Source: an uncultured Anaeroplasmataceae bacterium
GTDB taxonomy: Bacteria; Bacillota_I; Bacilli_A; Acholeplasmatales; Anaeroplasmataceae
NCBI GenBank assembly: GCA_947629825.1
Contig: CANRFF010000004.1
Span: forward strand, 1-64,000
DNA length: 64,000 bases
Direction: 5' to 3'
The position numbers and the translations under genes were made by a program. A model generated the notes under the pieces. It was not told the origin of the DNA, did no database searches, and saw nothing but the letters and a program-made list of their open reading frames with translations. Of this stretch, positions 42,172-59,859 are shown one piece after another (position 1 is the first letter of the stretch; the number at the start of each line of letters is the position of its first letter).

Positions 42172-42200
42172 TCAAAAAACACCGACGATTCGGTCGGTGT
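42172..42200 (-). terminator. Terminator of the fibre-export locus
   Basis: ACACCGAC/GTCGGTGT hairpin (42179-42186 with 42193-42200) followed by a T-run on the minus strand, right after the stop codon at 42203. It marks the end of the locus that begins near 53260. Confidence 0.85.
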
Positions 42201-42202
42201 CA

Positions 42203-42877
42203 TTATTTTTTCGACTGTGATTCTTTGATTTTTTTCAATTCTTCTTCCAGAATTTCTTTTTTCAACTCTTCGATTTCCCGTTCCGTCAAAGAACGATGTT
42301 CCTGTGCGATTTTGTTTTTCCGGAATTGAATCCAAGTGGAAACAAACTGCAAAATCAACAAAAGCGCAAACGCCGTTACCAAAATGCCGAAAACAATCGG
42401 TCGGGACGAAGACCCGAAAATACTCATCGCAGATAACGTGCAAATATACTTTCCATACACCATATCCGCCGTAACCGGTTCCGTATCGGCAAGAACATTG
42501 TGGTCGCCTTGCGTAATCAGATACGTCGAATTTTTTTCAACGACACGATGAACGATAAACGATCCCGCTATGGTTCCCGATTTCGACCGATAAATAATCA
42601 CATCTCCGCTTTGAACCTCATCAAAAGAAATCTGCCGGAAGAGAATATAATCTCCCGCCTCAATCGTCGGTTCCATCGAATCGGTCGGGACATAAGAAAT
42701 GCTGTATCCCAAAATCCGAGGAGGGCGATGTTCGTTTGACGCCCGAATCACTTCCGTCGCAATCAGACAACAAAGAATCAAAACACAAACCGTGATTACC
42801 GAAGAAATAATGGCTTTATATCTTTTCTTCGGTGTTTCGCTTTTCTCTGATGATTTTTGCGATTCTTTGTTTTTCAT
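42203..42877 (-). CDS. sipW: SipW-like (ER-type) signal peptidase I
   Basis: A 224-residue signal peptidase of the S26B/SipW type. Helix at 22-46; catalytic Ser67 in PTDSMEP; His110 in FIVHRVV replaces the Lys of ordinary bacterial SPase I; Asp125 in TQGDHN; second helix near 161-182; then a charged C-terminal helix (195-218). SipW enzymes process TasA and camelysin-type proteins, several of which are encoded upstream. The ATG at 42877 lies inside the end of the previous gene (61-bp overlap), with a weak AGAGA ribosome site, so translation may be coupled. Confidence 0.9.
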   Translation of the reverse strand: MKNKESQKSSEKSETPKKRYKAIISSVITVCVLILCCLIATEVIRASNEHRPPRILGYSISYVPTDSMEPTIEAGDYILFRQISFDEVQSGDVIIYRSKSGTIAGSFIVHRVVEKNSTYLITQGDHNVLADTEPVTADMVYGKYICTLSAMSIFGSSSRPIVFGILVTAFALLLILQFVSTWIQFRKNKIAQEHRSLTEREIEELKKEILEEELKKIKESQSKK

Positions 42878-44339
42878 TTTCGATCTCTTGAAGTTTCTGA
42901 TGATCCGTTGTCCGATTCTTTTCCTCTTGCCGTTTCTTCTTCGCAAGTTCTCTGGCTTCCTGCAAGCGAATTCTCCGTTGTAAATTCGTAATTTCCTGCG
43001 TCAGTTTCTTTTGGCTTTTGCCCATTCGGGCGATATTCATCTGTTTTTGCTTATATACCATCTGCAAAACACGTAATTTTTTTCGGGAATACTCCAACTT
43101 CTCATAAAGATCCATCGAATTCAGTTGTTCGTCACTCACATCGAACACCCGCGGATAAATCTGATCCAGCATATCCAACATTTGTCGGTAAATGACGCGA
43201 AGCGATTCGGATTCACTGCTTCCGCTTCTTTGCATACCATTCAGATTCGCTTCATAATATTTCGCCGTTTCCCGCAATAAAAATTCGTTCATCCGGTAAT
43301 CTTCCAATTTCCGATCCCCCGGAGCCAACGAAGGCGTATCCGATATCTTCGGATTTTGCGTCGGTTTCGCTTCTTTCAAAACCTCTTTCAATTTGGTCGG
43401 AACCACACCCTCGATATCCCGACTTCTCAAAAACGCCGTCATCGCCAAAGCCATAATTTCATTCATATCGGCATTCAAAACGGAAGTATACCGATAGTTC
43501 TTCTCCCGGACTTCGACGCCGAAATTGATTCCGTCGGTCCGATCCAGATACAGCCACAGATTATAACACATTTTAAAATCCGGATTATGCAAAATGATAT
43601 TGGTCTTCATAATCGGCGGAAACACGTCTTTCGCTTTCGAAAGAGTTCTCATAAAATCCGTTCCTTTGAGACTCTGAACCAAATCCCGCAAATAACACAA
43701 CCGTTCATACTGCGCTTTGGTCGCCTCAATATTCTGATCTATGGAATTTTTGACGGAAATATCGATGGCCATATGGACTTCCTGCCCGGCCATTAAAAAA
43801 TCGTTTTCCACATTCAAATGTTCTTTTTCAAAAGATTCCAACGATGTTTTCATGACGTTGTAACGACGTTCCAGAAACATCTCGATTCTTTTGACCAGAG
43901 ATTTGATAAAACGATTTTCGTAAATTGCCAATTCTTCTTCGGCAAATGTGGAAAGCACTTTGGCCGGAACCACATCGCCGTTTTCTTTGATTTCTTTGAT
44001 TAAATGCGTATGACTGGAAAGATGTTTTACCGTATCCGAATTGACTTTTTTGGCCTTTTCGACGTTGACGATTTCCTGTTCGTAACGAATCGACCGTTTC
44101 GGATCTTTCATAATCTTCAACAACGCCGGATAGGTACTTTCGATCACATCCAGAAATTCCAGATTAAACTGCCGAATTTCCACTTGCGTCTTATTGTACG
44201 TCTGTTTCCGACCGCTCTTGACTCTTCCGAGAATATAACTTCCGAATTCGTTTTCCAACGTTTTCTGTTCCAAACCATCATAAATCTGTTGATAAAAATC
44301 CTGAATGCTTTCCAGTACCCGTTCTCTTCTCGTTGCCAT
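42816..44339 (-). CDS. DUF2357-like coiled-coil protein paired with a McrB-like ATPase
   Basis: A 507-residue cytoplasmic protein. TFAEEELAIYENRFIKSLVKR (one residue trimmed: ENRFIK at 141-146) resembles the conserved core of DUF2357, found in McrC-like partners of McrB ATPases. Such proteins usually carry a PD-(D/E)XK nuclease after this domain; none is visible here. The C-terminal 100 residues (about 410-507) form a long, very charged coiled coil. It lies 3 bp after the ATPase gene and overlaps the sipW-like gene. Function unknown; a structural or regulatory partner of the ATPase is likely. Confidence 0.65.
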   Translation of the reverse strand: MATRRERVLESIQDFYQQIYDGLEQKTLENEFGSYILGRVKSGRKQTYNKTQVEIRQFNLEFLDVIESTYPALLKIMKDPKRSIRYEQEIVNVEKAKKVNSDTVKHLSSHTHLIKEIKENGDVVPAKVLSTFAEEELAIYENRFIKSLVKRIEMFLERRYNVMKTSLESFEKEHLNVENDFLMAGQEVHMAIDISVKNSIDQNIEATKAQYERLCYLRDLVQSLKGTDFMRTLSKAKDVFPPIMKTNIILHNPDFKMCYNLWLYLDRTDGINFGVEVREKNYRYTSVLNADMNEIMALAMTAFLRSRDIEGVVPTKLKEVLKEAKPTQNPKISDTPSLAPGDRKLEDYRMNEFLLRETAKYYEANLNGMQRSGSSESESLRVIYRQMLDMLDQIYPRVFDVSDEQLNSMDLYEKLEYSRKKLRVLQMVYKQKQMNIARMGKSQKKLTQEITNLQRRIRLQEARELAKKKRQEEKNRTTDHQKLQEIENEKQRIAKIIREKRNTEEKI

Positions 44340-44342
44340 AGA

Positions 44343-45884
44343 CTATCCCATCTTCTTCAAATCTTCAATGAAGTCTTTGGAAACTTGAAATTGTTCTTTG
44401 CCGAACAAACGATCCAACATCGCAATCAATTCGTTGAGTTCGGTTTTCAAGAACGTCAAATTCAACATTTCGAATTTCCTTAAAATCTTAAACGTCAACA
44501 TATAATCCAAACCGTCCAGTTCGCTGAACCCGCAGGCCATATAAACCGGCACAAACAGTTTGATTTGTTTCATAATACGGTTTCCGAACGCAATCTTGAA
44601 TTTTTCCTGAATAAACTGATCCAACTGTTCAAATGCTTTGGACGCCGTTTCCGATAAGTTATATCCCGATTGTGCCCGTTTGAACAAATCTTCCAGATAT
44701 TCGAACGTCATCGATACCGGTTCCGTAAACGGTGCGTCGATAAAATCCGCTCTTTGATTCAACGCAATCGCAACCGCACGGTCATAAACCTTATCGGTAA
44801 TCGTAAACGTGGAATCATCTTTATTCGCCGTACCGATAAACCACAAATTCTGCGGAATCAGTATTTTTCCGTTGATCAAATTCTTCGGATCGGATTCTTC
44901 GCTGACCGGAACGATATCGATTTTCCATTCGCTCGGATCCGGCATTTCCATTACCGACAAGAATTCGGCGAAATAATACTCGATACGAGCCAAGTTCATT
45001 TCATCGAGAACAATCAGATTGACCGTATCGGAATACGAAGCCGCATAAACGCTCTTTAAGAAATCCGTTTCATTGAACCGTTTGGTAAACTCATTCAGAT
45101 ACCCCAATAATTCGGCCCGATCCCGCCAAGACGGTTGAACCGAAATAATCGACGTCGGGTTCTGGAAAAATTTGCCCATCGCATACGGAAGCGACGTTTT
45201 ACCGGTACCGGAAATACCTTCCAGAATCAATACTTTGGAAGTCGCAAGACCGGCAAAAAACCGGGCAATGATTTCTTTTTTATAAAATAATTTCAACTGA
45301 GAAGCGGAGAAATTGATAAAACGATCCACCAATTCTTTCAAATCCAACATATCGGTCGACGTCATCGCCGTAACAATCGGGTTTTCTTCCATCATCTGAT
45401 CCACCTGAAGCAACTTGGAAAATCTGGAATCCGCCAATTCTTCTTTTTTGCGGGAAGTTGCGGATTCATATTCCGCCAGTCCCGGCGCACCGACACCCAG
45501 TTGGGAAATTCTCATCGCAAGAATCTTGTTCTTTTCGTCAATCAAATCCACCACTTTTTGATTCAATAAAGAAACTTCTTCGACCAACGTATCTTTTTCG
45601 ATTTCTTTTTTGGTAAATCGAACATATCGTTTGATCAAAAGGTAAAGCAGAAAAACCACCAACGCAATAAAACCGATATTGATAATGAGTACGAAAATAA
45701 AGGCAATATAGTCCAAAACGCTCCAGTTCGCAATATTTTCAACAAATAACTGATAATATCCATCTACCGCCCAATCTTTATAAAAGATTCTGGCAAACAA
45801 ATCTCCTATTGTCGCAAAGAAATAACAAATATTTCCCCATAATTGTTCCAAAAATCGTAGATAAAATTGTGTAAATCCTGTCAT
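44343..45884 (-). CDS. Membrane-anchored McrB-like AAA+ ATPase
   Basis: A 513-residue AAA+ protein. An N-terminal hydrophobic region (about 13-35) and a strong membrane helix (56-84) are followed by a coiled coil (95-125) and the AAA+ core: Walker A GISGTGKT (223-230), QPSWRDRAELLGYLN, Walker B IVLDEMN (291-297), sensor 1 in GTANKDDST (351-359) and an Arg in YDRA (369). These motifs follow the McrB/dynein-related clade, where the partner is McrC. The membrane anchor is unusual for McrB. It is flanked by the SipW-type peptidases and the DUF2357-like gene. It may drive assembly or secretion of surface proteins. Confidence 0.8.
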   Translation of the reverse strand: MTGFTQFYLRFLEQLWGNICYFFATIGDLFARIFYKDWAVDGYYQLFVENIANWSVLDYIAFIFVLIINIGFIALVVFLLYLLIKRYVRFTKKEIEKDTLVEEVSLLNQKVVDLIDEKNKILAMRISQLGVGAPGLAEYESATSRKKEELADSRFSKLLQVDQMMEENPIVTAMTSTDMLDLKELVDRFINFSASQLKLFYKKEIIARFFAGLATSKVLILEGISGTGKTSLPYAMGKFFQNPTSIISVQPSWRDRAELLGYLNEFTKRFNETDFLKSVYAASYSDTVNLIVLDEMNLARIEYYFAEFLSVMEMPDPSEWKIDIVPVSEESDPKNLINGKILIPQNLWFIGTANKDDSTFTITDKVYDRAVAIALNQRADFIDAPFTEPVSMTFEYLEDLFKRAQSGYNLSETASKAFEQLDQFIQEKFKIAFGNRIMKQIKLFVPVYMACGFSELDGLDYMLTFKILRKFEMLNLTFLKTELNELIAMLDRLFGKEQFQVSKDFIEDLKKMG

Positions 45885-45918
45885 TTGTTACTCACCCTTT
45901 TCTTCAATCGCAAGGTTT

Positions 45919-47160
45919 TTATTCGGAAGTTTTGTTCGTTCCTTTCGGAGTGGTTTTCTTCGGTTGGGAAGATTTCGGTCTGGAGACCGTTGTTTTCGAT
46001 GTTCCCGTCGATTTTGTCGAAGCCGTCTTCTTCGTTTGAGAAGATTTTGCTTTAGAAGCCGTCGTTTTCGATGATCCCGTTGTCGATTTGGAAGTCGTCT
46101 TCTTCGGTTTTACAGGTTTGGCCGCTTCCGGTTGGGAAGGTGCTTCTTCCTGCTGTGCCTCCGGATTCGATTTTTCCGTCGTCAAATTCGGCTCATCAAC
46201 AGACGGATTCGCATTCTCTGTCGAAGGTTTTTCCGAAACAGACTCTTCGGTCGGTTCTTCCGCAGGTGTTTCAACGCTTTCCGCTTTCAAAGCCGAATCT
46301 TCTTCTGTCGGAAGCGGTTGAATCACTTCATTTTTTTCGCTTTCCAAAGCCACTTGATTTCTTTTGGCTTCTTCTTGCAATTCCGCCAGAATCTGCGCTT
46401 TCAAAGCCTCTTTTTGCGATTGTAAATCTTCCGTACCTGCGGCTTTTTGTTTTTCCGCACGCAAATCCAGAACATTCTTCGCAACCATAAATATTTCAAA
46501 AATCAAAAATAACGCAATCGGAAGAACAAAATACCATAACCAGTTCTGATGAATATTATCCAAAACTTTACCGGCTCCGGTATTGACCCCGGTTACAACT
46601 CCTTTGATATTTTCAACGGAAACCAATTCCGTAGCCCGTTCAAATGACAACTTTCCGTTATATTCCGAAAACGGTTCGTCTTTGTCAAACGGTTGTAACT
46701 GCGCCCGTTGATCCCCTTGGGTAATCACGGATTTAGAATCTTCGAAAATATAAACGATTCTATGGGTATTCAGGGCTTCTAAATCCTGAGAATAGAATGT
46801 GATGACATCTCCGACATGCAAAGAACTGCAATCTTTTTTGTTGAAGACATCGACCAACAACAAATCTCCTTTATTGAATCCGCCGATTTTATAGTCTTTC
46901 CATTCTTCCGGATCTTTTCCGCTTTCGGAACGGGACATAGAATCGGATTGTACCGATAAAAATCCCTTTCCGAAAATATTCGGGAATCCCTGATTTTTGC
47001 TTCCTGCGTTAATATTCATAATCGAGAATAACAACAGAAAAAGAATAATCAGATAAAACAGAACATTTCCCGCTATTTTCAAACCGAAAATCGTCTTTTC
47101 TTTCGCCGTTTTCGGTGTCTTTGGTTCGTTCCCATTTTTTTGTTTGGTTACTTCTTGCAT
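45919..47160 (-). CDS. Second SipW-like signal peptidase with long cytoplasmic tail
   Basis: A 413-residue ER-type signal peptidase. Helix at 26-50; Ser74 in SDSMS; His133 in NTHRIV; Asp150 in TQGDQ; second helix at about 207-227. The remaining 185 residues are a predicted cytoplasmic tail: a helix (248-268) similar in pattern to the tail of the shorter peptidase, an acidic Pro/Glu-rich stretch, and a Lys/Ser/Thr-rich end with two imperfect repeats of SKTTxSxxKSSQxKKT. GAGGT precedes the ATG. A weak internal promoter (TTGTTT, TAAAAT) is near 47190-47215. Confidence 0.85.
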   Translation of the reverse strand: MQEVTKQKNGNEPKTPKTAKEKTIFGLKIAGNVLFYLIILFLLLFSIMNINAGSKNQGFPNIFGKGFLSVQSDSMSRSESGKDPEEWKDYKIGGFNKGDLLLVDVFNKKDCSSLHVGDVITFYSQDLEALNTHRIVYIFEDSKSVITQGDQRAQLQPFDKDEPFSEYNGKLSFERATELVSVENIKGVVTGVNTGAGKVLDNIHQNWLWYFVLPIALFLIFEIFMVAKNVLDLRAEKQKAAGTEDLQSQKEALKAQILAELQEEAKRNQVALESEKNEVIQPLPTEEDSALKAESVETPAEEPTEESVSEKPSTENANPSVDEPNLTTEKSNPEAQQEEAPSQPEAAKPVKPKKTTSKSTTGSSKTTASKAKSSQTKKTASTKSTGTSKTTVSRPKSSQPKKTTPKGTNKTSE

Positions 47161-47296
47161 TTTTTTACCTCACTTAGTAATAAAATATATACTCATTTTA
47201 ACATAAACCGCATAAATAAACAACATTTCTGTAAAAATGCCGTTTTTCGTCATACCTATCTAAACAAAAAAATAGGAATGTGTCAAAAACATCAAT

Positions 47297-48334
47297 CTAT
47301 TCTTCGTCTTCTTCCGTAATACCGAAAGTCAAATTCAACGCCGTCGGCATCCGATGAATGATCTCGAAACAATCGCTGTCCCATCCTTCAAACCAAAAGG
47401 TAATCGTCATTTTCATCATTTGATTGGCTCCGATTTTTTCATTTTCATCGGAAGAATCAATGATATGATAGTTTTCCGTATATTCGATATCTCCACGGGA
47501 AATCGCCGCTTGTGGCACCGTTTTGTTCGTTTTGTGAATACTGTTGTAGTTATACAAAGCCAAATTCTTCGAATCTTCCAGAATTCCTCCGAAACTATAA
47601 ACGTCGGATTCGGCGTCATAGTGCGGATTTTGCGTTCCTCCTTGAAAGATCACCATGTTTTGGATCGTTTGCGTCGTCTGATACTGTTCCGGGTGAAATT
47701 TCTCCACCACGTTATATTTTTGAATGGCCACTCTCGAAGCCGATGCGGAATTGACTTTCACAATACCGGAAATGGTCTTTCCGTCCCAGATATCCGCCGG
47801 ATAAGTAAACGGATTGACAACGCTTTTGGAGTTGACTTTTCCCGTAAGCAAATCTCCTTTGAGATAAGCGTCCAAAAACCGTTCTTCTCCCGAATCGTCT
47901 TCCAAAGAGACCTGATATGGAGCAATATATAAATCAAATTGAAAATATCCGTCGGTGGTTTGTCCTTCCAAATCCCGAAACGGAGTCAGGTTGTTTCCGT
48001 TTCTCAAAGTGGTACACTGTGCCAAAGCCAACTCGTCGAATGCCCGATTGACTTGCTGACGGGAAAAAGATTCTGCCCGAATGTTCCGATTCAGCAAAAT
48101 CCGTCTGCGTAATTCCGTCGAATCCACCTGAGAAGAAAACGTCCCCTCTTCTCCCGTCAAAGAAACTTCGATTCCGTAGTCGGCTAACTTCTGAGCCTGC
48201 AATCCGATTTCGAATTCCTCTGTACCGGAAAAGGAATTCAGACCAATCCATGCATAAGTCGTTGCCGCTGCGGTAATGATGACCAGAATACTCATCATCA
48301 CACTCAAATACAATTTTCTAAGAGCAAACTGCAT
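47297..48334 (-). CDS. SipW-type signal surface protein, fibre protein 5
   Basis: A 345-residue secreted protein. The N-terminus has a basic start, a hydrophobic helix and TTYAWIGLN, the TxAW pattern seen in SipW-dependent signal peptides. Near the C-terminus FWFEGWDSDCF matches the W-x-EG motif shared by all six proteins of this locus. Ribosome site AGGAGGG. Probably a minor subunit or cap of a surface fibre. Confidence 0.8.
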   Translation of the reverse strand: MQFALRKLYLSVMMSILVIITAAATTYAWIGLNSFSGTEEFEIGLQAQKLADYGIEVSLTGEEGTFSSQVDSTELRRRILLNRNIRAESFSRQQVNRAFDELALAQCTTLRNGNNLTPFRDLEGQTTDGYFQFDLYIAPYQVSLEDDSGEERFLDAYLKGDLLTGKVNSKSVVNPFTYPADIWDGKTISGIVKVNSASASRVAIQKYNVVEKFHPEQYQTTQTIQNMVIFQGGTQNPHYDAESDVYSFGGILEDSKNLALYNYNSIHKTNKTVPQAAISRGDIEYTENYHIIDSSDENEKIGANQMMKMTITFWFEGWDSDCFEIIHRMPTALNLTFGITEEDEE

Positions 48335-48384
48335 AGATTGGTCCCTCCTCTTATCTTTGAATTTTCAAAAACGAATGTTGTTTT

Positions 48385-49344
48385 TTAATCTTTGGCTGCT
48401 ACCGCAAAATTCAAATCCAATTTGAATGTCTGTTTCCGACAACTATCCCAACAATCCGAATCGGCGCCTTCCAACCAAATCCGAATCACGATTTGTTGTG
48501 CGGTTCCCGCAGTCACGGTCAACGACGTCCAAGCAGATTCGGCATCGGCATTTCTGGTAGATGCACCTGTTGTCGCTGTCGTTCCGAAAGAATCTTTTCC
48601 TAAAACGGCACGATAATACTTGTTGGCATCTCCGCCCGTTACCATTCCTGCTTTGGTAGAATAAGTCGGAGAAACGAGACTCTTCAAAGATCCGCTCCCT
48701 AAAGTGGTAGCCGGATCCTCTCCCAATCCGGTATTGTTTCCATTGGCTTTTTGGCTGGTAATTTCCGCTGCCAAAGCGTATACGGCATCCGCCGTAAATG
48801 CCTTTCCGATTTCTTGATCTACACTGGTAGGCAAATAATCACCGGCGGCATAAACCGTCTGTGGCAACGGTTCCGAAGTTGTATTTTCCAACGTAGCTGT
48901 AACGTTGATGGTAGTGGCATCGGTAGATAAAATCCAGAATTTATACTCAATATATGGATTTTTACCTTCATTTCCGTCGATTTCGCTCCACTTTTTTCCG
49001 CTCGCATCTACCCAGTCGCCTTCGGCCAAACCTTTGTTAGCCCAAGCACCTTCTTCTCCGACGTCGCTTGCCAACACTTTGGAAACCGGATCCAACTGAA
49101 CATCAGAACCAGTCAAAGTGATACTTGACGTAAAGTTTCCCGGCTTATCTCCACCGGTATCAGATATATTTTGGGCAACCAACAGGTTTCCGCCCACTTC
49201 GGTTCCGGCCGTTGCTCCGTTTGCTCCCTGAACTTTGGCCGTTGTATTGGAAACATACCAAGCGAATGTCGTTGTCGACAACGTGGCAACAGCCAATCCC
49301 ATAGAAACGGCACTCAAAACTAATTTTTTCGCAATTTTTTTCAT
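48385..49344 (-). CDS. TasA/camelysin-like surface fibre protein, copy A
   Basis: A 319-residue protein with signal MKKIAKKLVLSAVS...STTTFAWYVSNT, the SipW-cognate pattern. The mature part is rich in Ala, Thr, Ser and Gly and carries KPGNFTSSITL, NPYIEYKFWILST and near the end IWLEGADSDCWDSC (289-302). It is a close paralogue of the next gene, sharing signal peptide, core blocks and the paired cysteines. AGGAGG lies before the ATG. Likely a major subunit of an extracellular fibre. Confidence 0.85.
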   Translation of the reverse strand: MKKIAKKLVLSAVSMGLAVATLSTTTFAWYVSNTTAKVQGANGATAGTEVGGNLLVAQNISDTGGDKPGNFTSSITLTGSDVQLDPVSKVLASDVGEEGAWANKGLAEGDWVDASGKKWSEIDGNEGKNPYIEYKFWILSTDATTINVTATLENTTSEPLPQTVYAAGDYLPTSVDQEIGKAFTADAVYALAAEITSQKANGNNTGLGEDPATTLGSGSLKSLVSPTYSTKAGMVTGGDANKYYRAVLGKDSFGTTATTGASTRNADAESAWTSLTVTAGTAQQIVIRIWLEGADSDCWDSCRKQTFKLDLNFAVAAKD

Positions 49345-49363
49345 TTTCTTTTCCTCCTATTCA

Positions 49364-50278
49364 TTAGGCACCGGTCGTGAAAGTGAAATTCAGTTCGAAA
49401 TCTTGTCCCCGACAACTATCCCAACAATTTTCGCAAGTTCCTTCCAACCAAATCCGGATCACAATTTCTTTCGGCACTCCGGCTGTTACGGTAATCGAAC
49501 TGAAAGAAGCGGCTTCCATTTCAACCGAGTCTCCCGTTCCGGAGGTTCCTTGATTTCCTGCTTTATATCCGGTTGTACCATACGCTGCATATCCAAGCAT
49601 TGCCTTGAAATATTGGTTCGCATCTCCGCCCCAAACACATTCTTCAGGGCTTGTATAAGCGGCATCCAATCCAACCAATCCTCCGGTTGCCAGTTCTGCC
49701 GGACTTTCTTTCAAAGTCATATCCGTAGAAGAAGTGGCATCTTGCCCCGTAATGACACACTTCAATGCCCGAACGGCATCTACTTTGAACTCATCTCCTA
49801 CGTGTGTCGGCTTCGTTGCCGTTCCCGAATCCGGTAAACTTGCTGCGTTATATACCGTTTGTTTAATAAACGATGTTGTGCTGTTTTTCAGTTTGGACGT
49901 TACATTGACGGTTGTTGCCTCCGTAGAAAGAATCCAGAACTTGTATTCGATATACGGATTGCTTGCCGTCTGATCCGTTCCCTCCTGATCATACCATTTC
50001 GATTCCGAGAGAGTAACCGGATTCAACTCTTTTCCCGACGGCGAAAGAGTAATCGACGAAGTAAAGTTTCCCGGTTTATCTGGTCCTTCCAAGTCAGGCG
50101 CGTTTTGGGCAACCAACAAATTACCGCCAATTGCTTCTCCCTCAATTTTTCCGTTGACTCCGCCTACCGACGCTTCGGTATTGGAAACATACCAAGCGAA
50201 TGTCGTTGTTGACAACGTTGCGGCAACAAGTCCCAGAGAAACTGCACTCAATACTAATTTTTTCGCAATTTTTTTCAT
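49364..50278 (-). CDS. TasA/camelysin-like surface fibre protein, copy B
   Basis: A 304-residue paralogue of copy A. Signal MKKIAKKLVLSAVSLGL is nearly identical, ending TTTFAWYVSNT. Shared blocks are GNLLVAQN, KPGNFTSSITL, NPYIEYKFWILST and IWLEGTCENCWDSC. The two genes are 19 bp apart and look like a recent tandem duplication that diverged in the middle. Probably a second major fibre subunit. Confidence 0.85.
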   Translation of the reverse strand: MKKIAKKLVLSAVSLGLVAATLSTTTFAWYVSNTEASVGGVNGKIEGEAIGGNLLVAQNAPDLEGPDKPGNFTSSITLSPSGKELNPVTLSESKWYDQEGTDQTASNPYIEYKFWILSTEATTVNVTSKLKNSTTSFIKQTVYNAASLPDSGTATKPTHVGDEFKVDAVRALKCVITGQDATSSTDMTLKESPAELATGGLVGLDAAYTSPEECVWGGDANQYFKAMLGYAAYGTTGYKAGNQGTSGTGDSVEMEAASFSSITVTAGVPKEIVIRIWLEGTCENCWDSCRGQDFELNFTFTTGA

Positions 50279-50317
50279 TTTTTCCTTTCCTTTCTTTTGA
50301 TTGCTTTTTTATTTTTG

Positions 50318-51376
50318 TTATCTTTTTTGTGCAAAAGATAATTGCACTTTGATGGACTGGCTGATTCCGTTAAAACAATCAGCATCCCAACCTTCCAGCC
50401 AGAACCGGAATGTTACTTTCCGACTTCTTGTGCCTTCCAGTCTGCATACTCTTACCTGATTTACTTCATCTCCTCCTTCTACTTTTGTCAACGAACGAAT
50501 CGTTTCCGGTTTTTGTTCAACCTCCAACTTTTCCAATGCCCCTTCTCCCCGAAGGTGATTGTAATACGTAAACATCGCATTTTTTTCGGCATCATAAAGT
50601 TCATTCGTCGTGTCTGTCGTTGCATAACTTCCCAAATCATATTCATCCGTCATTTCGACGATTTGATATGTCGGTTCATTTTCTTCATCTTTTCCGATAA
50701 TTCCCATTCTCATGGCGTTGGAAGAACGGACTTTCAAATTTTCTCCCGCAACATATTCGGTTTTCGTATCGATTCCCGGTCGCTGGTTCACTGTCAGTCC
50801 CGCTTGTAAAACCACTTGATCCAATTCGCTTTGGATGGCGGTTTTGGGAATTTCGACTTCTTCTCCGCCATTGGCTAACACTCTGTCTTTTCCGTTTAAA
50901 TACACATCGAGTAATCCCGTGGAAGTTTCGGTTGAGTTCGTATTCTTGACGAAATACAAATCCAATTCAAAAAAACTACCGCTGTTCGCATCTACCTGCG
51001 CCCCTTCCCGAAGCGTCAACGCAAAGGTATCCGATCCGACGGAAGTAAGCGGAAACAATTTGATGTTCTGCATTTCTTCTTCGACCGAAACCGGATCGTC
51101 AAACGCATCTGTCAGAATTCCGTTTTCATTGAAATGATAGTCGGAATGGTATTTCAAAAGAATCGCACTCAACGCTTCTTCTTTCGATAGTATCGTCTTG
51201 AAATGCTCATCGTCGACGGAAACCAAAAATCCTTCTCCGGAAGTTACTTCCAATTCCATTCCTTCGATCCAGACATCCGAATTGAGAGAAAGCCAAGCAA
51301 ACGTGGCGGAAACGAACGAAACAATCGTCAGTCCCAATGCCATAAAACTCAAAAAGATTTTTTTTCTTGCGTTCAT
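50318..51376 (-). CDS. SipW-type signal surface protein, fibre protein 3
   Basis: A 352-residue secreted protein. The signal ends SATFAWLSLNSD (TxAW pattern). The mature part is acidic and contains YYNHLRGEGALEKL and, near the C-terminus, FWLEGWDADCFNG. It resembles its neighbour at 51386 in the order of segments (GEGFLVSVDDEHFK against SQLLVSVDGEHFK; NAMFTYYN in both), so the two are paralogues. AGGAGGG precedes the ATG. Confidence 0.82.
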   Translation of the reverse strand: MNARKKIFLSFMALGLTIVSFVSATFAWLSLNSDVWIEGMELEVTSGEGFLVSVDDEHFKTILSKEEALSAILLKYHSDYHFNENGILTDAFDDPVSVEEEMQNIKLFPLTSVGSDTFALTLREGAQVDANSGSFFELDLYFVKNTNSTETSTGLLDVYLNGKDRVLANGGEEVEIPKTAIQSELDQVVLQAGLTVNQRPGIDTKTEYVAGENLKVRSSNAMRMGIIGKDEENEPTYQIVEMTDEYDLGSYATTDTTNELYDAEKNAMFTYYNHLRGEGALEKLEVEQKPETIRSLTKVEGGDEVNQVRVCRLEGTRSRKVTFRFWLEGWDADCFNGISQSIKVQLSFAQKR

Positions 51377-51385
51377 TTTGCCCTC

Positions 51386-52411
51386 CTATTCTCTTTGTTT
51401 CATTTCAAAAGATAAGGCAATCCGTACCGACGTGGTATTCAGCCCAATCAAATTATCCGCATCGAATCCCTCGATCCACAAAGATAAGTCCACTTCCAGA
51501 ACATTATATTTTTTTTCCGTTTCGGAATAGTGAAACGTTCCCAGTGATCCTTCCAAAGAATCTCTCAGAGAATCGATTAAATTTTTGGTATCTTCCAGCG
51601 AGGTTGCCGACTGATAGAATTTCGGTTTCAGAAGATTGTTGTTGATCCGGTTATAATAGGTAAACATCGCATTTTTTCCGCTTTGATATTTTTCCTGATT
51701 ATATTCGGGATCGATTTGTCCCAACTGAGTCAGAATTTCTTCGTCAAACGCATAGGAACCCAGATCGGTTTCGTCCGTCGGACAATAGATATATTTTTCC
51801 GTCTCGGTCGTTACTTGCATTCTGAGCGCATTGACGGGATTGACCGTAATCGTTTCTTTGGCTTTCATCGACCGATCTTTCGTCGTCAACTCGTTCTGTA
51901 AGCGGATTTCCTGAGGGGTTCCGGAAAACGAAGTCTTTCCGACGCCGTCGCTGTCTTCCGATTTGAACTGCAAATCATATTCCGGATATCTCGTATCCGT
52001 CGTTCCCGTCCGAATCGTAAAATACAATTTCATTCCGATCTTGCTGTTGGCGTCTGCCTCTGCGGAAGAAAGTTGTCTTTTTCCGCCGACAAAACGGATT
52101 TCTTCTTTTCTGAAATGAACTCCGTCGTTTGAAGTTACCGGCATCAGCCGAATTTCTTTCAAACTCGAAATCGGAGAATCCGAATACAAATTGACTGCCG
52201 TCAAAATATCTTCTTCCGTCAACAACGGCTTGAAGTGTTCCCCGTCAACACTAACCAATAATTGACTGGTGTTTTCGATTTTCACTTCAAACGGTTCCAA
52301 TTTCGCACTGTCATTCAAGGAAAGCCACGCATACGTGGAGGAAACCGCCGTAATCATCAACAAAATCACGGAAATGACCGTCAGTGTAATCTTACACTTG
52401 ATTTGTCTCAC
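51386..52411 (-). CDS. SipW-type signal surface protein, fibre protein 2
   Basis: A 341-residue secreted protein starting at GTG (52411), with GGCGGGAG before it. The signal ends SSTYAWLSLNDS. Blocks LLVSVDGEHFKPLL, NALRMQV and NAMFTYYNRI are shared with the protein at 50318. The C-terminal motif is LWIEGFDADN, without the Cys of its relatives. Probably a minor fibre component. Confidence 0.82.
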   Translation of the reverse strand: MRQIKCKITLTVISVILLMITAVSSTYAWLSLNDSAKLEPFEVKIENTSQLLVSVDGEHFKPLLTEEDILTAVNLYSDSPISSLKEIRLMPVTSNDGVHFRKEEIRFVGGKRQLSSAEADANSKIGMKLYFTIRTGTTDTRYPEYDLQFKSEDSDGVGKTSFSGTPQEIRLQNELTTKDRSMKAKETITVNPVNALRMQVTTETEKYIYCPTDETDLGSYAFDEEILTQLGQIDPEYNQEKYQSGKNAMFTYYNRINNNLLKPKFYQSATSLEDTKNLIDSLRDSLEGSLGTFHYSETEKKYNVLEVDLSLWIEGFDADNLIGLNTTSVRIALSFEMKQRE

Positions 52412-52426
52412 TATCTCCCGCCTTTC

Positions 52427-53125
52427 CTACAAAACAGACAACTGCAACGTAAAGCGAATCGTCCCTTGCAGTATACTGTCATTGTCATCGGCATCCTGTC
52501 CTTCCAACCAGATCAGAACCGAATATTTCATATTCGTTTCCGGCTCCAACGTGGAATGAACCTGCTGATATACTCTGCCGTTTCCCAAAAAGTTCTCCGT
52601 AACGGGATACTCCGTTCCGTAATCCGTTTCGACATCATCCGGTGCCTGATAACACTGCTGACGTCCTTGGGAAATCGTCATAATCCGTATGGCTTTATCT
52701 ACGTTTTTCGATACTTTCGAATAACTCATCGTCGATTGGATTTCCAATGCCTGTTGAGTATCGTTGACCACAAAAAACGTATATGAATATACACACGCTT
52801 TTTTCGGAGAGCCATTATCGTAGATGACATGCAGGCCTCCTTCTGCCGTAGACGATTCGATTTGTGATTCGAAACGGTTCCACGTCGTATCGGTTACTCC
52901 CCGCAGTCCTTCGACTTCGATTCTCTTTTCATACTGATCATCGGAAAGATTTTCGGTAATGTGCAACTTTCTTTCCGAATCTCCGGATTCGACTTCAATC
53001 ACAAAGTTTCCGGCCTGACGCCCCATAAACAAAGCGATAATGATAATGGCACTCGCCAAAAAAAACGTGATAATGGCTGTTATTAAAATGGCGCGATTTT
53101 TAAACAAACTAACAAAACGTTTCAT
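52427..53125 (-). CDS. First protein of the fibre locus, membrane-anchored
   Basis: A 232-residue protein with a basic start and one membrane helix (about 12-33). It lacks the TxAW motif of the other five, so it may stay anchored rather than be cut by SipW. The C-terminus has IWLEGQDADDND, the same W-x-EG motif, showing it belongs to the family. The ATG at 53125 follows GAGGTG; an ATG at 53173 would run through the hairpin after the riboswitch and is rejected. It is the first gene behind the c-di-GMP riboswitch. Confidence 0.8.
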   Translation of the reverse strand: MKRFVSLFKNRAILITAIITFFLASAIIIIALFMGRQAGNFVIEVESGDSERKLHITENLSDDQYEKRIEVEGLRGVTDTTWNRFESQIESSTAEGGLHVIYDNGSPKKACVYSYTFFVVNDTQQALEIQSTMSYSKVSKNVDKAIRIMTISQGRQQCYQAPDDVETDYGTEYPVTENFLGNGRVYQQVHSTLEPETNMKYSVLIWLEGQDADDNDSILQGTIRFTLQLSVL

Positions 53126-53144
53126 ACAAAGCACCTCTTCAATG

Positions 53145-53179
53145 AAAAAAGTTGCCACCAAAAAAGCCTTCAACTTTTT
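53145..53179 (-). terminator. Terminator-like hairpin between riboswitch and first gene
   Basis: AAAAAGTTG (53171-53179) pairs with CAACTTTTTT (53145-53154) on the minus strand, giving a stem that ends in a T-run. It lies right after the aptamer and before the first start codon, so the riboswitch probably acts by termination. The stem is AU-rich with a long loop. Confidence 0.55.
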
Positions 53180-53258
53180 ACAATGACAACTGGCTATCCT
53201 TTTTGGACCCTTTAGCTTTGCGTCACTACATTTCTATAGCTTTGCCTTTTACATCGAT
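53176..53258 (-). promoter_or_regulatory. Class I cyclic di-GMP riboswitch (GEMM-I)
   Basis: The minus strand reads AAAAGGCAAAGC, a CTATA-GAAA-TGTAG hairpin with a GNRA tetraloop, GTGACGCAAAGCTA, GGGTC, and GGATAGCCAGTTG. This is the conserved GEMM-I aptamer (GACGCAAAGC core, tetraloop in the second helix, AGCCAG near the 3' side). CGATG and CATTG can close the outer stem. It sits between a consensus promoter and the first gene of the fibre locus. GEMM-I RNAs bind c-di-GMP; whether binding turns the locus on or off cannot be decided by eye. Confidence 0.92.
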
Positions 53259-53266
53259 TTACCTAT

Positions 53267-53295
53267 ATTATACGCTTGTATGTAAGCGTTGTCAA
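53267..53295 (-). promoter_or_regulatory. Consensus promoter of the fibre-export locus
   Basis: TTGACA (53290-53295) and TATAAT (53267-53272) separated by exactly 17 bp. The spacer contains the inverted repeat ACGCTT-N6-AAGCGT, a possible operator. Transcription would begin about 53260, just before the riboswitch. Confidence 0.85.
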
Positions 53296-53476: not shown

Positions 53477-53929
53477 TCAGTATTTTTTCGAAAAATAAAT
53501 ATAAACAAACAGATAAATCAAAAGTACTACCACCAAAATCGAAAGAAGCGTATAGAAAATATATGCATTGAAAAAACCGGTGATAATCAGCGCAATCCCG
53601 CACATATAAATAAAAATTTTAATCACCATCGCATTGGTTCTCAGACGAATGTAATTCAACCGTTCGTCGTTTTTGCGAATCAACGTCATATCCGCATAGT
53701 CGATATCCGTCAAAATCCGGACGTAATTATAGATTTTTACTCCGATATACCCTTCCAACAACACAAAAATCGCATAGCGGAGAACCACCAGATCCTGATA
53801 AACCACCAATTTTTCTTTAAAAAACGCAAACTCGAATAAAACCAACAATAGTATCGGCAAAATCACCGAAAGACTCATCACAATCAATTTGATTTTCGTC
53901 GATTTCCGCAGATGTTCTTTACTCTCCAT
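53477..53929 (-). CDS. Four-helix membrane protein linked to an XRE regulator
   Basis: A 150-residue membrane protein with four predicted helices in two pairs (about 15-35, 45-70, 95-115, 120-142). I recognise no function; small membrane proteins of this sort (DUF2178/DUF3169-like) are often paired with XRE regulators. The ATG at 53929 follows GGAGGG and overlaps the end of the regulator gene by 11 bp. Confidence 0.7.
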   Translation of the reverse strand: MESKEHLRKSTKIKLIVMSLSVILPILLLVLFEFAFFKEKLVVYQDLVVLRYAIFVLLEGYIGVKIYNYVRILTDIDYADMTLIRKNDERLNYIRLRTNAMVIKIFIYMCGIALIITGFFNAYIFYTLLSILVVVLLIYLFVYIYFSKKY

Positions 53930-54134
53930 CTTCGTTTCCCTCCTCATCCAACATAAAAATCTTTTCGATCGGCACTTCGAAAATTTTGGCCATTTTCAAT
54001 GCCAAAGGCAAAGAAGCGATATACTTTCCCTGTTCTATCGAAATAATGGTCTGACGGGTAACCCCGATTTTTTTCGCCAATTCTTCCTGCGTCAATTTAT
54101 GACGTTTCCGTAATTCATATACGTTGTTTTTCAT
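53919..54134 (-). CDS. XRE-family transcriptional regulator (small Cro/CI-like)
   Basis: A 71-residue helix-turn-helix protein: LRKRHKLTQEELAKKIGVTRQT carries the motif (shortened here to LTQEELAKKIGVTRQTI), followed by LALKMAKIFEVPIEKIF. This compact form is typical of YozG/Cro-like regulators. The ATG at 54134 follows AAAGGAG. A TATAAT is near 54163. It might regulate the fibre-locus promoter next door, but that is position only. Confidence 0.9.
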   Translation of the reverse strand: MKNNVYELRKRHKLTQEELAKKIGVTRQTIISIEQGKYIASLPLALKMAKIFEVPIEKIFMLDEEGNEDGE

Positions 54135-54259
54135 ATACACACTCCTTTGTCCGACAGATATTTTTATTATATCAAAAATATTTTCATAAGAAAAGGACTT
54201 GTCATAAAATCCCGTTTTCCGTCCTTTTTGCATATAATAAATCAAAGCGTTGTGATAAA

Positions 54260-54826
54260 ATGCCCTATGACTTCGAATATCATCTGAGATTAGACCAATC
54301 GCATATTCTGCCCAATATTTTAAAAGGCGCTCAAACGGGAGTGGCTTCCCAATTTATCTCGGACATCATCATTTCTCTGTTACTGTTCAATGAAACCATT
54401 GTGATCGAAGACATTCAGATCAGTGAGATTCCCGCCTACTATGCCTCCGTAGCCAGCGGAATGATGGCCGGATTACTGTCGATTTTTTTAGACCCGATCG
54501 CCTTGATTGCTTTTACCACTCTGACCTATGGCGTCGTCTTTGAAATCGTCGATTTCGTCACGACCAATGATCCGATTGTTTTCACCCCGCGAGAAGATAT
54601 TTTCGACATCTGTCTTACCGTACTTCTGGTTACTCTTTTCGATCCCGTCGCCCGTCATCAGTACTTTCGGTTCCGTCAAAAAAGGCACTTTCAGGAACCC
54701 ACTTTACAACGGGAAGACCGAACGCTTTCTTCTACGATTTTTTTCGCAGTTCTTCTGAGTACTTATACTTTTTTGAAACAAACGCAAAAAGAAGCGGAAA
54801 ACGAGAATACCAACGAAACTTCTTAA
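54260..54826 (+). CDS. Orphan membrane protein, function unknown
   Basis: A 188-residue protein with about four hydrophobic segments (roughly 28-45, 60-75, 78-100, 110-128, and 155-172) and a Glu/Asn-rich end. It is one of only two plus-strand genes in the window and I recognise no family. TATAAT (54234-54239) lies about 20 bp before the ATG and no ribosome site is visible, so its mRNA would be nearly leaderless. Its stop codon overlaps that of the convergent oxidoreductase gene. It is transcribed away from the XRE gene. Confidence 0.55.
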   Translation: MPYDFEYHLRLDQSHILPNILKGAQTGVASQFISDIIISLLLFNETIVIEDIQISEIPAYYASVASGMMAGLLSIFLDPIALIAFTTLTYGVVFEIVDFVTTNDPIVFTPREDIFDICLTVLLVTLFDPVARHQYFRFRQKRHFQEPTLQREDRTLSSTIFFAVLLSTYTFLKQTQKEAENENTNETS

Positions 54827-57494: not shown

Positions 57495-57495
57495 A

Positions 57496-59859
57496 TTATC
57501 GTTCTCCTTTCTTCCCTCCGTTTTTTTCTTCCAATAACTTCAATGCTTCCGCATAAGGAATCGGTCGACTGATCAAATATCCCTGAATCACCCGACATCC
57601 CAACTTACGAATCACTTCTTGTTGAGCCTGTGTTTCGACTCCCTCGCAGATCACATTCAGATTCAATTCTTTTGCCAACGTACAAATACAGCTGACAATC
57701 GAATGGTTGACTTGGTTCGTATCGACGTATTTCGTAAACGAATAGTCGATTTTTATGGTGTCTGCCGGCAACTCCGTCAAGTACGTCATCGAAGAATAGC
57801 CCGTACAGAAATCGTCCAAATGAATGGAAAAACCGGCATTTTTCAATAATTTCAGTTTTTCGTTGACCAACGTGAAATTCTCGACCAAGAACGTCTCCGT
57901 GATTTCCAGCGCCACGCTTCCCGGTTTGAGATGATTGCGATTGAACTGTTCAATCAGATCATTCACAAATCCCACTTGCAGTATTTGTACCGGCGACAGA
58001 TTCATCGAAATGGTAATATGATAATCTTCCAACTGTTTGGCAATTCTCAAAGATTCTTTCAAAACGAATTTACTGATATCGAGAATATATCCCCGCTGTT
58101 CCGCCAGTTCGATAAACGCCTGCGGAGATTTTTTCAAATATTTCGGATGATTCCACCGAATGAGTGCCTCAAAACCGACGATTTTGTTCGCCACGATATC
58201 ATATTGCGGTTGAAGATACATTTCGAATTCTTCTTTTTCAATCGCAATTTTCAAATCTTCTTCCATTTGTGCCGTCTGGGTCAGAACTCCGGCCATCGCA
58301 TCATTGTAGACAATAATATCTTTTTTCAATTCCAATCCGTTGTTGTAGGCGATTTCCAAACGTTTTTTGACTTCGTCCAAAGTAATCTGCGACATTTCGG
58401 ATTTGACAACATTCACCACAGACATTTTACAGTGAACATAGATATGATTGCTTTTTACCAAAAACGGCTTGCGCAAAATTTCTTCTATTTTCCGGACATT
58501 GACCAAAACGTCTTCCACATCGACATTCGGAACCAAAACCAAGAAAATCTCATCTCTTGTCTGATAAATCGGACTGTCTTCGAATTGATTTTTCAAAATC
58601 GCCAACAATTCCTGCAACATCAGATAATACGTTTCATTGCCGAACAAAGACAAAACATCATACCATTTATCCACCTGAAATTCCACAAACGCCAAATCCG
58701 TTTGGGCGGTCGCCGTCAAGGTCGGGAACAGATTCGTCAACGCAAAATTGTTGTCGCACCCCGTATGTTCGTTTTTCCCGTTCAGCATTTCCAGAGACTG
58801 AATTCGTTCATACTGTTCGGTAATATCGCTTCCGACCAGATAATATGTCGATAAAACACCAATCGGCGTCAACTGAAAATATTTGACGGTTTCTTGGTTC
58901 CGATAAAAACATTCGATGGTTTTTTTGGTTTTGAAATATTTGAAAATCGGTTCTTCGGTATGGACTTCTTTCAATTCGTTCACGTCCGGAATCTGTTTCA
59001 AATCAAACAACCGTTTGAATGTCGGGTTCGCATAAATCAATTTTCCGTCTTTCTTTACCCGAAGAATGATCGCATGGTTGGTCTGTACGGAATGTCGATC
59101 CACCCGCAACAATACCGAGGCTTTCCGGACGCCCAAGATGATGATGACCAACAGCGCAATCAGAATCAAAACACCGACTCCGAAAAATATCAACGCCTGA
59201 ACCAGTACCCACTGAACCGAATAAAAAGCCGATTCCAACGGAATAAATACGCCGTAATAATATTCGTAAAAACTCTGAACCGCAAAAATTCCTTCCTCGC
59301 CGGCAATCCGGTATACTTTCGCATAATCTTCGGTAAGTTCTGCGGAGGCAAACGATTCGTCGTCCAACAAACGAGAAAGCGTTCCGATCGGCTCTGAAGT
59401 GATGGTGTTATGTTTGATCGTCAACGAGGACGTAAAAACCACGGTTTTGAATTCGGAAAACGACAGGAGTCGTTCCAAAGGAATAGATCCTCCCAAAATA
59501 GATTCGTCTTCCGTATCATATCGACAAAAGAACACATATAACTGCGTATCCCCGTTATCGAAAAACTCGTTTCCCGTTGCGATTTTGATTTTTTGTTCTT
59601 CCATTTTGTTGTAATAACTGGATTTGTTGAAATCCGTTTCGATGCCCGTAAAATTCTGATTTTCGAACTGTTCGTAATAAGCGGAAATTTCGTTATTCAA
59701 AATGGCGACGTCCGAACCTGCCGCTTCCAAAGAAAGAGTTTCCATCGACTGAATCGCTTTGGCGCGTACCGGCAAGTAAAAACAAAATGCAATGGCCAAA
59801 TATGAAATTACCAATATGATACAGGCTAACAGATACCACCTTAAATCTCTCAATCGCAT
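57496..59859 (-). CDS. Membrane c-di-GMP phosphodiesterase (sensor-PAS-GGDEF-EAL)
   Basis: A 787-residue protein: helix at 10-30, an extracellular sensor of about 190 residues, a second helix near 225-248, a PAS-like domain (about 265-350), a degenerate GGDEF domain (site reads TRDEIF) and an intact EAL domain (about 535-780). EALIRW, NLSPVQ, EITET, DDFCTGYSS, KID, EGVET and QGYLIS hold all usual metal and catalytic residues. It should degrade c-di-GMP at the membrane in response to an outside signal. A consensus promoter lies upstream. The nearby c-di-GMP riboswitch is a plausible target. Confidence 0.92.
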   Translation of the reverse strand: MRLRDLRWYLLACIILVISYLAIAFCFYLPVRAKAIQSMETLSLEAAGSDVAILNNEISAYYEQFENQNFTGIETDFNKSSYYNKMEEQKIKIATGNEFFDNGDTQLYVFFCRYDTEDESILGGSIPLERLLSFSEFKTVVFTSSLTIKHNTITSEPIGTLSRLLDDESFASAELTEDYAKVYRIAGEEGIFAVQSFYEYYYGVFIPLESAFYSVQWVLVQALIFFGVGVLILIALLVIIILGVRKASVLLRVDRHSVQTNHAIILRVKKDGKLIYANPTFKRLFDLKQIPDVNELKEVHTEEPIFKYFKTKKTIECFYRNQETVKYFQLTPIGVLSTYYLVGSDITEQYERIQSLEMLNGKNEHTGCDNNFALTNLFPTLTATAQTDLAFVEFQVDKWYDVLSLFGNETYYLMLQELLAILKNQFEDSPIYQTRDEIFLVLVPNVDVEDVLVNVRKIEEILRKPFLVKSNHIYVHCKMSVVNVVKSEMSQITLDEVKKRLEIAYNNGLELKKDIIVYNDAMAGVLTQTAQMEEDLKIAIEKEEFEMYLQPQYDIVANKIVGFEALIRWNHPKYLKKSPQAFIELAEQRGYILDISKFVLKESLRIAKQLEDYHITISMNLSPVQILQVGFVNDLIEQFNRNHLKPGSVALEITETFLVENFTLVNEKLKLLKNAGFSIHLDDFCTGYSSMTYLTELPADTIKIDYSFTKYVDTNQVNHSIVSCICTLAKELNLNVICEGVETQAQQEVIRKLGCRVIQGYLISRPIPYAEALKLLEEKNGGKKGER

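Follow-up and report, generated by a model that had tools for sequence, protein, structure and literature searches.

A conserved c-di-GMP riboswitch operon encoding exported proteins, signal peptidases, and a McrB/McrC-like pair in an uncultured Anaeroplasmataceae bacterium

Why would a gene pair resembling a restriction system, an McrB-like AAA+ protein and a DUF2357 (McrC N-domain-like) protein, stand among exported proteins and signal peptidases (SPases) behind a riboswitch for cyclic di-GMP (c-di-GMP)? The question is raised by a ten-gene operon in a 64,000-nucleotide stretch (positions 1 to 64,000 of contig CANRFF010000004.1, assembly GCA_947629825.1; hereafter the window) of the 1.42 Mb genome of an uncultured Anaeroplasmataceae bacterium, a host that is probably wall-less, following from its placement among the Acholeplasmatales. 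We find that the locus is real, conserved, and coherent, not a chance cluster, and that, although its relatives are labeled as restriction systems, it most likely serves export or assembly at the surface. The reading that we favor, and consider fairly probable, is that of a c-di-GMP-induced operon for a surface fiber or matrix, in which a membrane-bound McrB-like nucleoside triphosphatase (NTPase) would act as a secretion or assembly motor or as a chaperone.

The operon and its conserved neighborhood

Does this combination of genes recur? A neighborhood search with the AAA+ protein as query covered 80 named loci in other genomes, from Acholeplasmatales, Izemoplasmatales, Christensenellaceae, and other Bacillota, whose genes were called by a simple longest-open-reading-frame script and whose counts may be a few off. 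All 80 loci have a SipW-type peptidase along with the AAA+ gene, and a peptidase lies directly upstream of that gene in 56 of 62; DUF2357 is the next gene after AAA+ in 70/73, mostly at most 20 bases away, another peptidase follows downstream within 5 kb in 47/50, and subunit-type genes precede AAA+ in 43/49. An earlier reading of this DNA, made from its letters and open reading frames (the sequence-only reading), had taken the locus for one functional unit, which the conserved linkage across the 80 loci strongly supports: SPase, DUF2357, and subunit-type genes stay linked in the mapped loci, whereas neither of the two patterns that would speak against a unit, AAA+/DUF2357 genes mostly without SipW genes or a defense neighborhood, was found. 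Sequence and conservation together establish the gene cluster and its linkage, as they do the riboswitch, the terminator overlap, and the absence of a nuclease described below.

Structurally, the operon spans 53295 to 42178, with all ten genes on the minus strand. Neighboring genes are 3–50 bases apart, except that T6 is separated from SPase B by 136 bases and that the last gene overlaps the one before it (Table 1). The riboswitch starts a few bases downstream of a perfect sigma-70 promoter, and the intrinsic terminator at the far end ranks first among terminator-like sites, which agrees with the single minus-strand locus with one start and one strong terminator claimed earlier and suggests a single transcript. 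All open reading frames stand at the coordinates first assigned to them; two starts had to be corrected, that of T1, most likely ATG 53125, and that of the last SPase (open reading frame 42203-42946), ATG 42877.

Table 1 Features of the operon and of the upstream EAL gene pair (all on the minus strand of the window)
Feature	Coordinates	Strand	Remarks
Sensor-type GGDEF-EAL protein, 787 amino acids (aa)	57496..59859	-	Degenerate GGDEF; EAL with EALIRW and LDDFC; predicted c-di-GMP phosphodiesterase
Membrane GGDEF-EAL protein, 493 aa	56013..57494	-	Degenerate GGDEF; EAL without DDF motif
Sigma-70 promoter	53267..53295	-	TTGACA-17-TATAAT; 12/12 consensus matches
c-di-GMP-I (GEMM-I) aptamer	53182..53256	-	At predicted transcript 5′ end; RF01051 60.7 bits, gathering score 35, E = 2e-9
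Leader attenuator terminator	53144..53191	-	Hairpin with a six-U tail; 5′ arm AGUUGUCAUU doubles as the 3′ strand of P1 in the aptamer
T1, first subunit-like protein	52427..53125	-	N-terminal transmembrane (TM) helix; no TxAW site; C-terminal WLEG motif
T2, exported subunit	51386..52411	-	TYAW type
T3, exported subunit	50318..51376	-	TFAW type
T4, exported subunit	49364..50278	-	TFAW type; 52% identity to T5
T5, exported subunit	48385..49344	-	TFAW type; AlphaFold2 model made
T6, exported subunit	47297..48334	-	TYAW type
SPase B, SipW/archaeal-type Ser-His signal peptidase	45919..47160	-	Long C-terminal tail
McrB-like AAA+ protein	44343..45884	-	TM helix about residues 60-90; coiled-coil-like stretch; Walker A GISGTGKT; Walker B VLDEMN; NxD (NKD)
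DUF2357 (McrC N-domain-like) protein	42816..44339	-	PF09823 E = 4e-11; long C-terminal helix, residues 411-506, in model
SPase A, archaeal/ER-type signal peptidase I	42203..42877	-	TIGR02228 E = 8e-25, over cut-off; start overlaps end of DUF2357 gene
Intrinsic terminator of the operon	42178..42201	-	Ranks first among terminator-like sites

The riboswitch and the local c-di-GMP enzymes

Which way would c-di-GMP turn the operon? The GEMM-I riboswitch claimed earlier is confirmed by a match to RF01051 well over the gathering score, and it is the only copy in the window genome. Overlapping its end, the leader holds a hairpin (AGUUGUCAUU...GGCAACU-UUUUUU, −15.4 kcal/mol folded alone) in which the strand UUGUC has two mutually exclusive partners, the GGCAA of P1 and the GGCAA of the terminator. 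Because the 5′ arm of the terminator is the 3′ strand of P1, the ligand-bound aptamer would exclude the terminator, and since UUGUC cannot pair with both partners, binding of c-di-GMP should prevent termination; the riboswitch is, on its leader, a predicted c-di-GMP ON switch. The same arrangement recurs among relatives, with the terminator hairpin starting within the last 13 bases of the aptamer in 57/73 leaders (the window and 56/72 others), versus 13.6 ± 3.2, maximum 23, in a shuffled-leader control of 200 shuffles. Many c-di-GMP-I riboswitches elsewhere in bacteria are OFF switches, and repression of the operon by c-di-GMP would fit that precedent; yet the 5′ arm of the terminator needs the P1 3′ strand in those 57 leaders, and we judge an OFF switch very unlikely. 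The hairpin was also considered as an antiterminator, a candidate dropped given the six-U tract and the P1 overlap.

An off-enzyme for this switch appears to be encoded alongside. A pair of EAL genes (56013-59859), missed by the sequence-only reading, belongs on gene order and orthology to the conserved locus: the two are orthologues of the EAL pair that stands directly upstream of the operon in relatives, the smaller being the second gene, and such a GGDEF/EAL pair is found upstream in 22/38 loci. Nearly all copies keep the same split of motifs, the larger protein having EAL and DDF(G) with GGDEF lost and the smaller having EAL without the DD motif, and because the larger keeps EAL and DDF while its GGDEF is lost, the pair is predicted to remove c-di-GMP. 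Synthesis should be available in the same genome, since at least four of its nine GGDEF domain matches retain the GGDEF motif; a PilZ domain was searched for there and none was found. Wall-less bacteria of the Acholeplasma type have been known for years to be rich in c-di-GMP enzymes, Acholeplasma laidlawii having 14 GGDEF/EAL proteins (Galperin 2008, PMC2408644). In the window, four genes at 53477-55959 (a small membrane protein, an XRE-type regulator, a plus-strand membrane protein, and a Gfo/Idh oxidoreductase) separate the EAL pair from the operon; this segment looks like an insertion, pair and operon adjoining in most relatives that have the pair.

How closely is the riboswitch tied to this gene set? 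Nine of these riboswitches served to build a covariance model, which on the loci of the relatives returned 75 matches, all on the operon strand, most of them at most about 220 bases from T1, and where more than 8.5 kb of upstream sequence was at hand a riboswitch lay upstream in 34/38 loci. Further positions are used as well: a riboswitch stands directly before the SPase B-AAA+ part in four species (L035, L044, L070, L081), before AAA+ in L096, and before the EAL genes in L046 and L053. Since these parts have riboswitches of their own, machine and off-enzyme would each be tied to c-di-GMP independently. Among genomes of the order, the riboswitch occurs in 75/78 with this AAA+ type versus 16/82 without it (Fisher p = 2e-25, which overstates independence because the genomes are kin), many incomplete assemblies being among those 16, and the genus-mates without this AAA+ type (G130-G137, G139) are also without the riboswitch.

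Some loci extend the pattern. A second c-di-GMP-I riboswitch precedes a downstream unit with TxAW-type genes (see below) in four of them (L054:15113, L063:14972, L082:13652, L058:14850), and in some loci a further signal peptidase and a giant protein belong to this unit. In one genome (G005) the system is present in full, with three c-di-GMP-I riboswitches (L167:3945-18488), and the last gene of its second unit encodes a 745-aa TxAW protein that carries a carbohydrate-binding module.

Exported proteins, peptidases, and the NTPase pair

What, then, would be built at the surface? T1 to T6 form one family, all six having the motif W-[LFI]-EG close to the C-terminal end and five a TxAW site (TYAW or TFAW) at the signal end, in keeping with the earlier count of six related surface proteins, five of them with SipW-type signals; T1, which is without the site, is likely an anchor or initiator. 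No family match was found for any of the six in Pfam or NCBIfam. The AlphaFold2 model of T5 (55 sequences, pLDDT 79.6, pTM 0.75) begins with a signal/TM helix; beyond the predicted A-W cut comes a segment with little order, then a beta-sandwich-like domain. A Foldseek search of solved structures gave none at E ≤ 0.001 for this model, and its weak fold similarities include MAM, carbohydrate-binding, and chaperone-usher pilin domains. Judged by the model, a flexible N-terminal strand plus sandwich would be compatible with donor-strand assembly, the mode of assembly of TasA (PMC9674648). Membership of the subunits in the TasA/camelysin family was rejected, with no TasA chain in the PDB profile search or among the top 50 fold matches and with Pfam and NCBIfam negative, and the TasA-type fiber of the sequence-only reading is reduced to an analogy. 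Matches of the subunit profile to VopL in the PDB (E = 0.04) were judged chance.

The same proteins could form an S-layer-like coat or act as secreted adhesins instead of polymeric fibers, regulation and processing being as described. Such a role would suit a single beta-sandwich-like domain weakly similar to MAM, carbohydrate-binding, and pilin domains alike, as well as the 745-aa carbohydrate-binding-module protein at the end of the linked L167 unit. However, several small paralogous subunits, of which the first appears to stay uncleaved, together with SipW-type processing make up the pattern of TasA/TapA- and BsaA-type fibers (PMC9674648, PMC7395162), and we regard a coat or adhesins as rather unlikely.

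Processing would fall to the two Ser-His signal peptidases, both borne out by TIGR02228/SipW matches. SPase B retains SDSM, THR, and TQGD, and its matches to SipW (E = 2e-9) and TIGR02228 (E = 2e-8) are both weak and under the cut-offs, the SipW model NF046067 being matched under its own. Genome-wide, TIGR02228 matches are the two operon SPases only.

And what of the restriction-like pair? The best solved relative of the AAA+ protein is E. coli McrB (6hz4, E = 0.001), and its TM helix is present, so that the description as a membrane-anchored McrB-like AAA+ protein stands. Walker A, Walker B, and NxD are kept in 25/25 aligned orthologues (GTANKDDST, with N354 and D356 invariant), and the TM helix and coiled-coil-like stretch are visible in the 25 sequences; Pfam detects no modified-DNA recognition domain on the protein, the N-terminal region of which is TM helix plus coiled coil. 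Its partner likewise merits the name of a DUF2357-like coiled-coil protein, with a PF09823 match, detected in 32/51 of its orthologues, and a long C-terminal helix. The top two fold matches of the DUF2357 model are McrC chains (prob 0.80 and 0.84, E = 0.014 and 0.065), which at the level of a model appear weak yet specific; profile matches to Huntingtin and Vipp1 were set aside as coiled-coil artefacts. The McrBC nuclease Pfam is absent from all 51 DUF2357-protein orthologues and (D/E)xK is not conserved, and no active nuclease was found in this protein by Pfam, conserved-residue, or fold searches. We infer a membrane-tethered NTPase ring with an McrC-like activator, without cutting function.

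If the pair were nonetheless an McrBC-type restriction or abortive-infection system riding in a surface operon, its McrB/McrC homology would need no further account, nor would its matches to the PADLOC candidate PDC-M26A (E = 2e-39) or the place that Bell et al. give the clade within their type IV restriction census (PMC11090510). However, the McrC partner is without a nuclease, a TM helix occupies the place where a DNA-recognition domain is expected, and the linkage to SPases and c-di-GMP riboswitches is strict; we hold this explanation to be extremely unlikely. A defense island was rejected on like grounds: the linked genes are those for SPases, subunits, and c-di-GMP functions, and searches of plasmids and phages gave partial matches to the AAA domain only.

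Similar pairs occur at other loci. In the window's own genome, a second conserved locus (L120:7627-19000, G000:C1) has the order (degenerate AAA+)–AAA+–DUF2357/coiled-coil–AAA+, and its neighbors are giant TM proteins carrying YDG repeats; it is shared by five further genomes (L161, L162, L163, L164, L166), and neither a signal peptidase nor a c-di-GMP riboswitch was found there. Because this paralogous pair adjoins giant YDG-repeat TM proteins, such ATPase pairs may serve surface proteins in general. Two genus-mates without the window's locus have a third type (L165:4199-8460, L169:3046-7270), an AAA+ protein of ~900 aa whose N-terminus holds a TM region; next come a DUF2357-like protein and two small conserved ones.

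Mechanistically, we posit that at high c-di-GMP the aptamer would retain the P1 strand, the leader terminator would be blocked, and the whole operon would be transcribed, whereas the local EAL phosphodiesterase, by lowering c-di-GMP, would let transcription end in the leader. The beta-sandwich subunits T2 to T6 would be exported via Sec with their TxA-W signals and cut by the two dedicated SipW/archaeal-type peptidases, while T1, as anchor or starter, would stay membrane-bound. The McrB-like NTPase, stimulated by its nuclease-less McrC-like DUF2357 partner, would act at the membrane's inner face as a dedicated secretion or assembly motor or as a chaperone for subunits or peptidases. Both the polymerization into fibers and the role of the NTPase are deduced from this setting.

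Several points weigh against this picture. The fiber is a prediction from the genes, the subunits fall into no known pilin or TasA family and give no confident match to a solved fold, and the ON direction rests on leader architecture. Moreover, SipW/TasA-type fibers of Bacillus and Clostridium form without such an operon ATPase (PMC9674648, PMC7395162), leaving its need unexplained. Finally, three loci (L067, L069, L072) have SPase and AAA+ without an adjacent DUF2357, so the pairing is not strictly obligatory; the units at these loci continue with TxAW proteins and one giant protein of ~2,300 aa.

The dispensability of DUF2357 there would also suit a different task for the pair in an operon otherwise as described, namely a quality-control or recycling machine that would extract signal helices after their cleavage, or precursors that have stalled, or would remodel the two signal peptidases. 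AAA+ proteins commonly extract membrane proteins, and this one, with its TM helix and coiled coil, lies between two peptidase genes in nearly all loci. The paralogous YDG-protein loci, however, carry the pair without any signal peptidase, so a peptidase-specific role is not general, and quality control strikes us as unlikely.

Under the favored reading, of a c-di-GMP-induced fiber or matrix operon with an NTPase motor or chaperone, the conservation of the set in many related bacteria suggests that a defense-type machine was re-used for cell-surface building. The locus would offer an example of a restriction-type NTPase pair apparently so re-used, with subunits, processing enzymes, switch, and off-enzyme in one place, and, with one riboswitch, no PilZ domain found, and one operon behind the switch, it would be a concrete c-di-GMP output in the window genome. 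The broader proposal, a new class of surface-fiber assembly machine in which a nuclease-less McrB/McrC-derived membrane NTPase powers export or polymerization of SipW-processed subunits under a c-di-GMP ON attenuating riboswitch, as the main identifiable c-di-GMP output of wall-less bacteria, we consider evenly balanced between true and false.

Comparison with known systems

Among fiber operons, tapA-sipW-tasA of Bacillus subtilis and sipW-bsaABC of Clostridium perfringens share with the window operon beta-rich exported subunits, a dedicated SipW-type peptidase, and accessory subunits; unlike it, they are under SinR or two-component control, have one peptidase, and are without AAA+/DUF2357 (PMC9674648, PMC7395162), and their TasA/BsaA-type subunits have no detectable family relation to T1 to T6. 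By the tests made, the window operon would function in the manner of a SipW/TasA-type fiber operon without belonging to the TasA family. With McrBC type IV restriction (E. coli McrB/McrC, PDB 6hz4, 6ut6) the pair shares the McrB-like AAA+ domain, the McrC N-terminal (DUF2357) fold, and the adjacency of the two genes, but a TM anchor replaces the modified-DNA recognition domain, there is no PD-(D/E)xK nuclease, the motif is NxD and not NxxD, and the neighbors are surface-protein genes. The riboswitch, a c-di-GMP-I (GEMM-I) member by its RF01051 score, differs with its relatives from other c-di-GMP-I riboswitches in being tied to one operon type across the order, in often being tandem, and in drawing its terminator arm from the aptamer.

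The closest known system had escaped the sequence-only reading, which knew of no description of the combination: Bell et al. (eLife 2024, PMC11090510) had given a single brief paragraph, to be followed by a further paper, to NxD McrB/McrC with a TM/coiled-coil domain and linked signal peptidases under the name "CoCoPALM". In that account the N-terminal transmembrane and coiled-coil part is an FtsB homologue and the signal peptidases are likely pilus assembly factors (PMC11090510). The literature searched held no other use of the name in this sense beyond that paper and its preprint, no account of the subunits, the c-di-GMP control, or the distribution in wall-less bacteria, and no paper joining c-di-GMP, Acholeplasma, and riboswitch; on SipW with McrB/DUF2357, c-di-GMP riboswitch with SipW, and c-di-GMP with Acholeplasma, only Bell et al. 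and Galperin proved relevant. The window locus resembles CoCoPALM in its NxD McrB-like AAA+ protein with N-terminal TM/coiled-coil-like part, its McrC homologue with coiled coil, and its linked signal peptidases, and by these features of motif, domain, and linkage it is best filed as a c-di-GMP-controlled CoCoPALM variant. To a paragraph that goes without subunits, regulation, or mechanism, the locus adds a defined subunit family, a predicted c-di-GMP ON riboswitch, an EAL pair, two peptidases per locus, a pair without nuclease, and a distribution across the wall-less Acholeplasmatales and their relatives.

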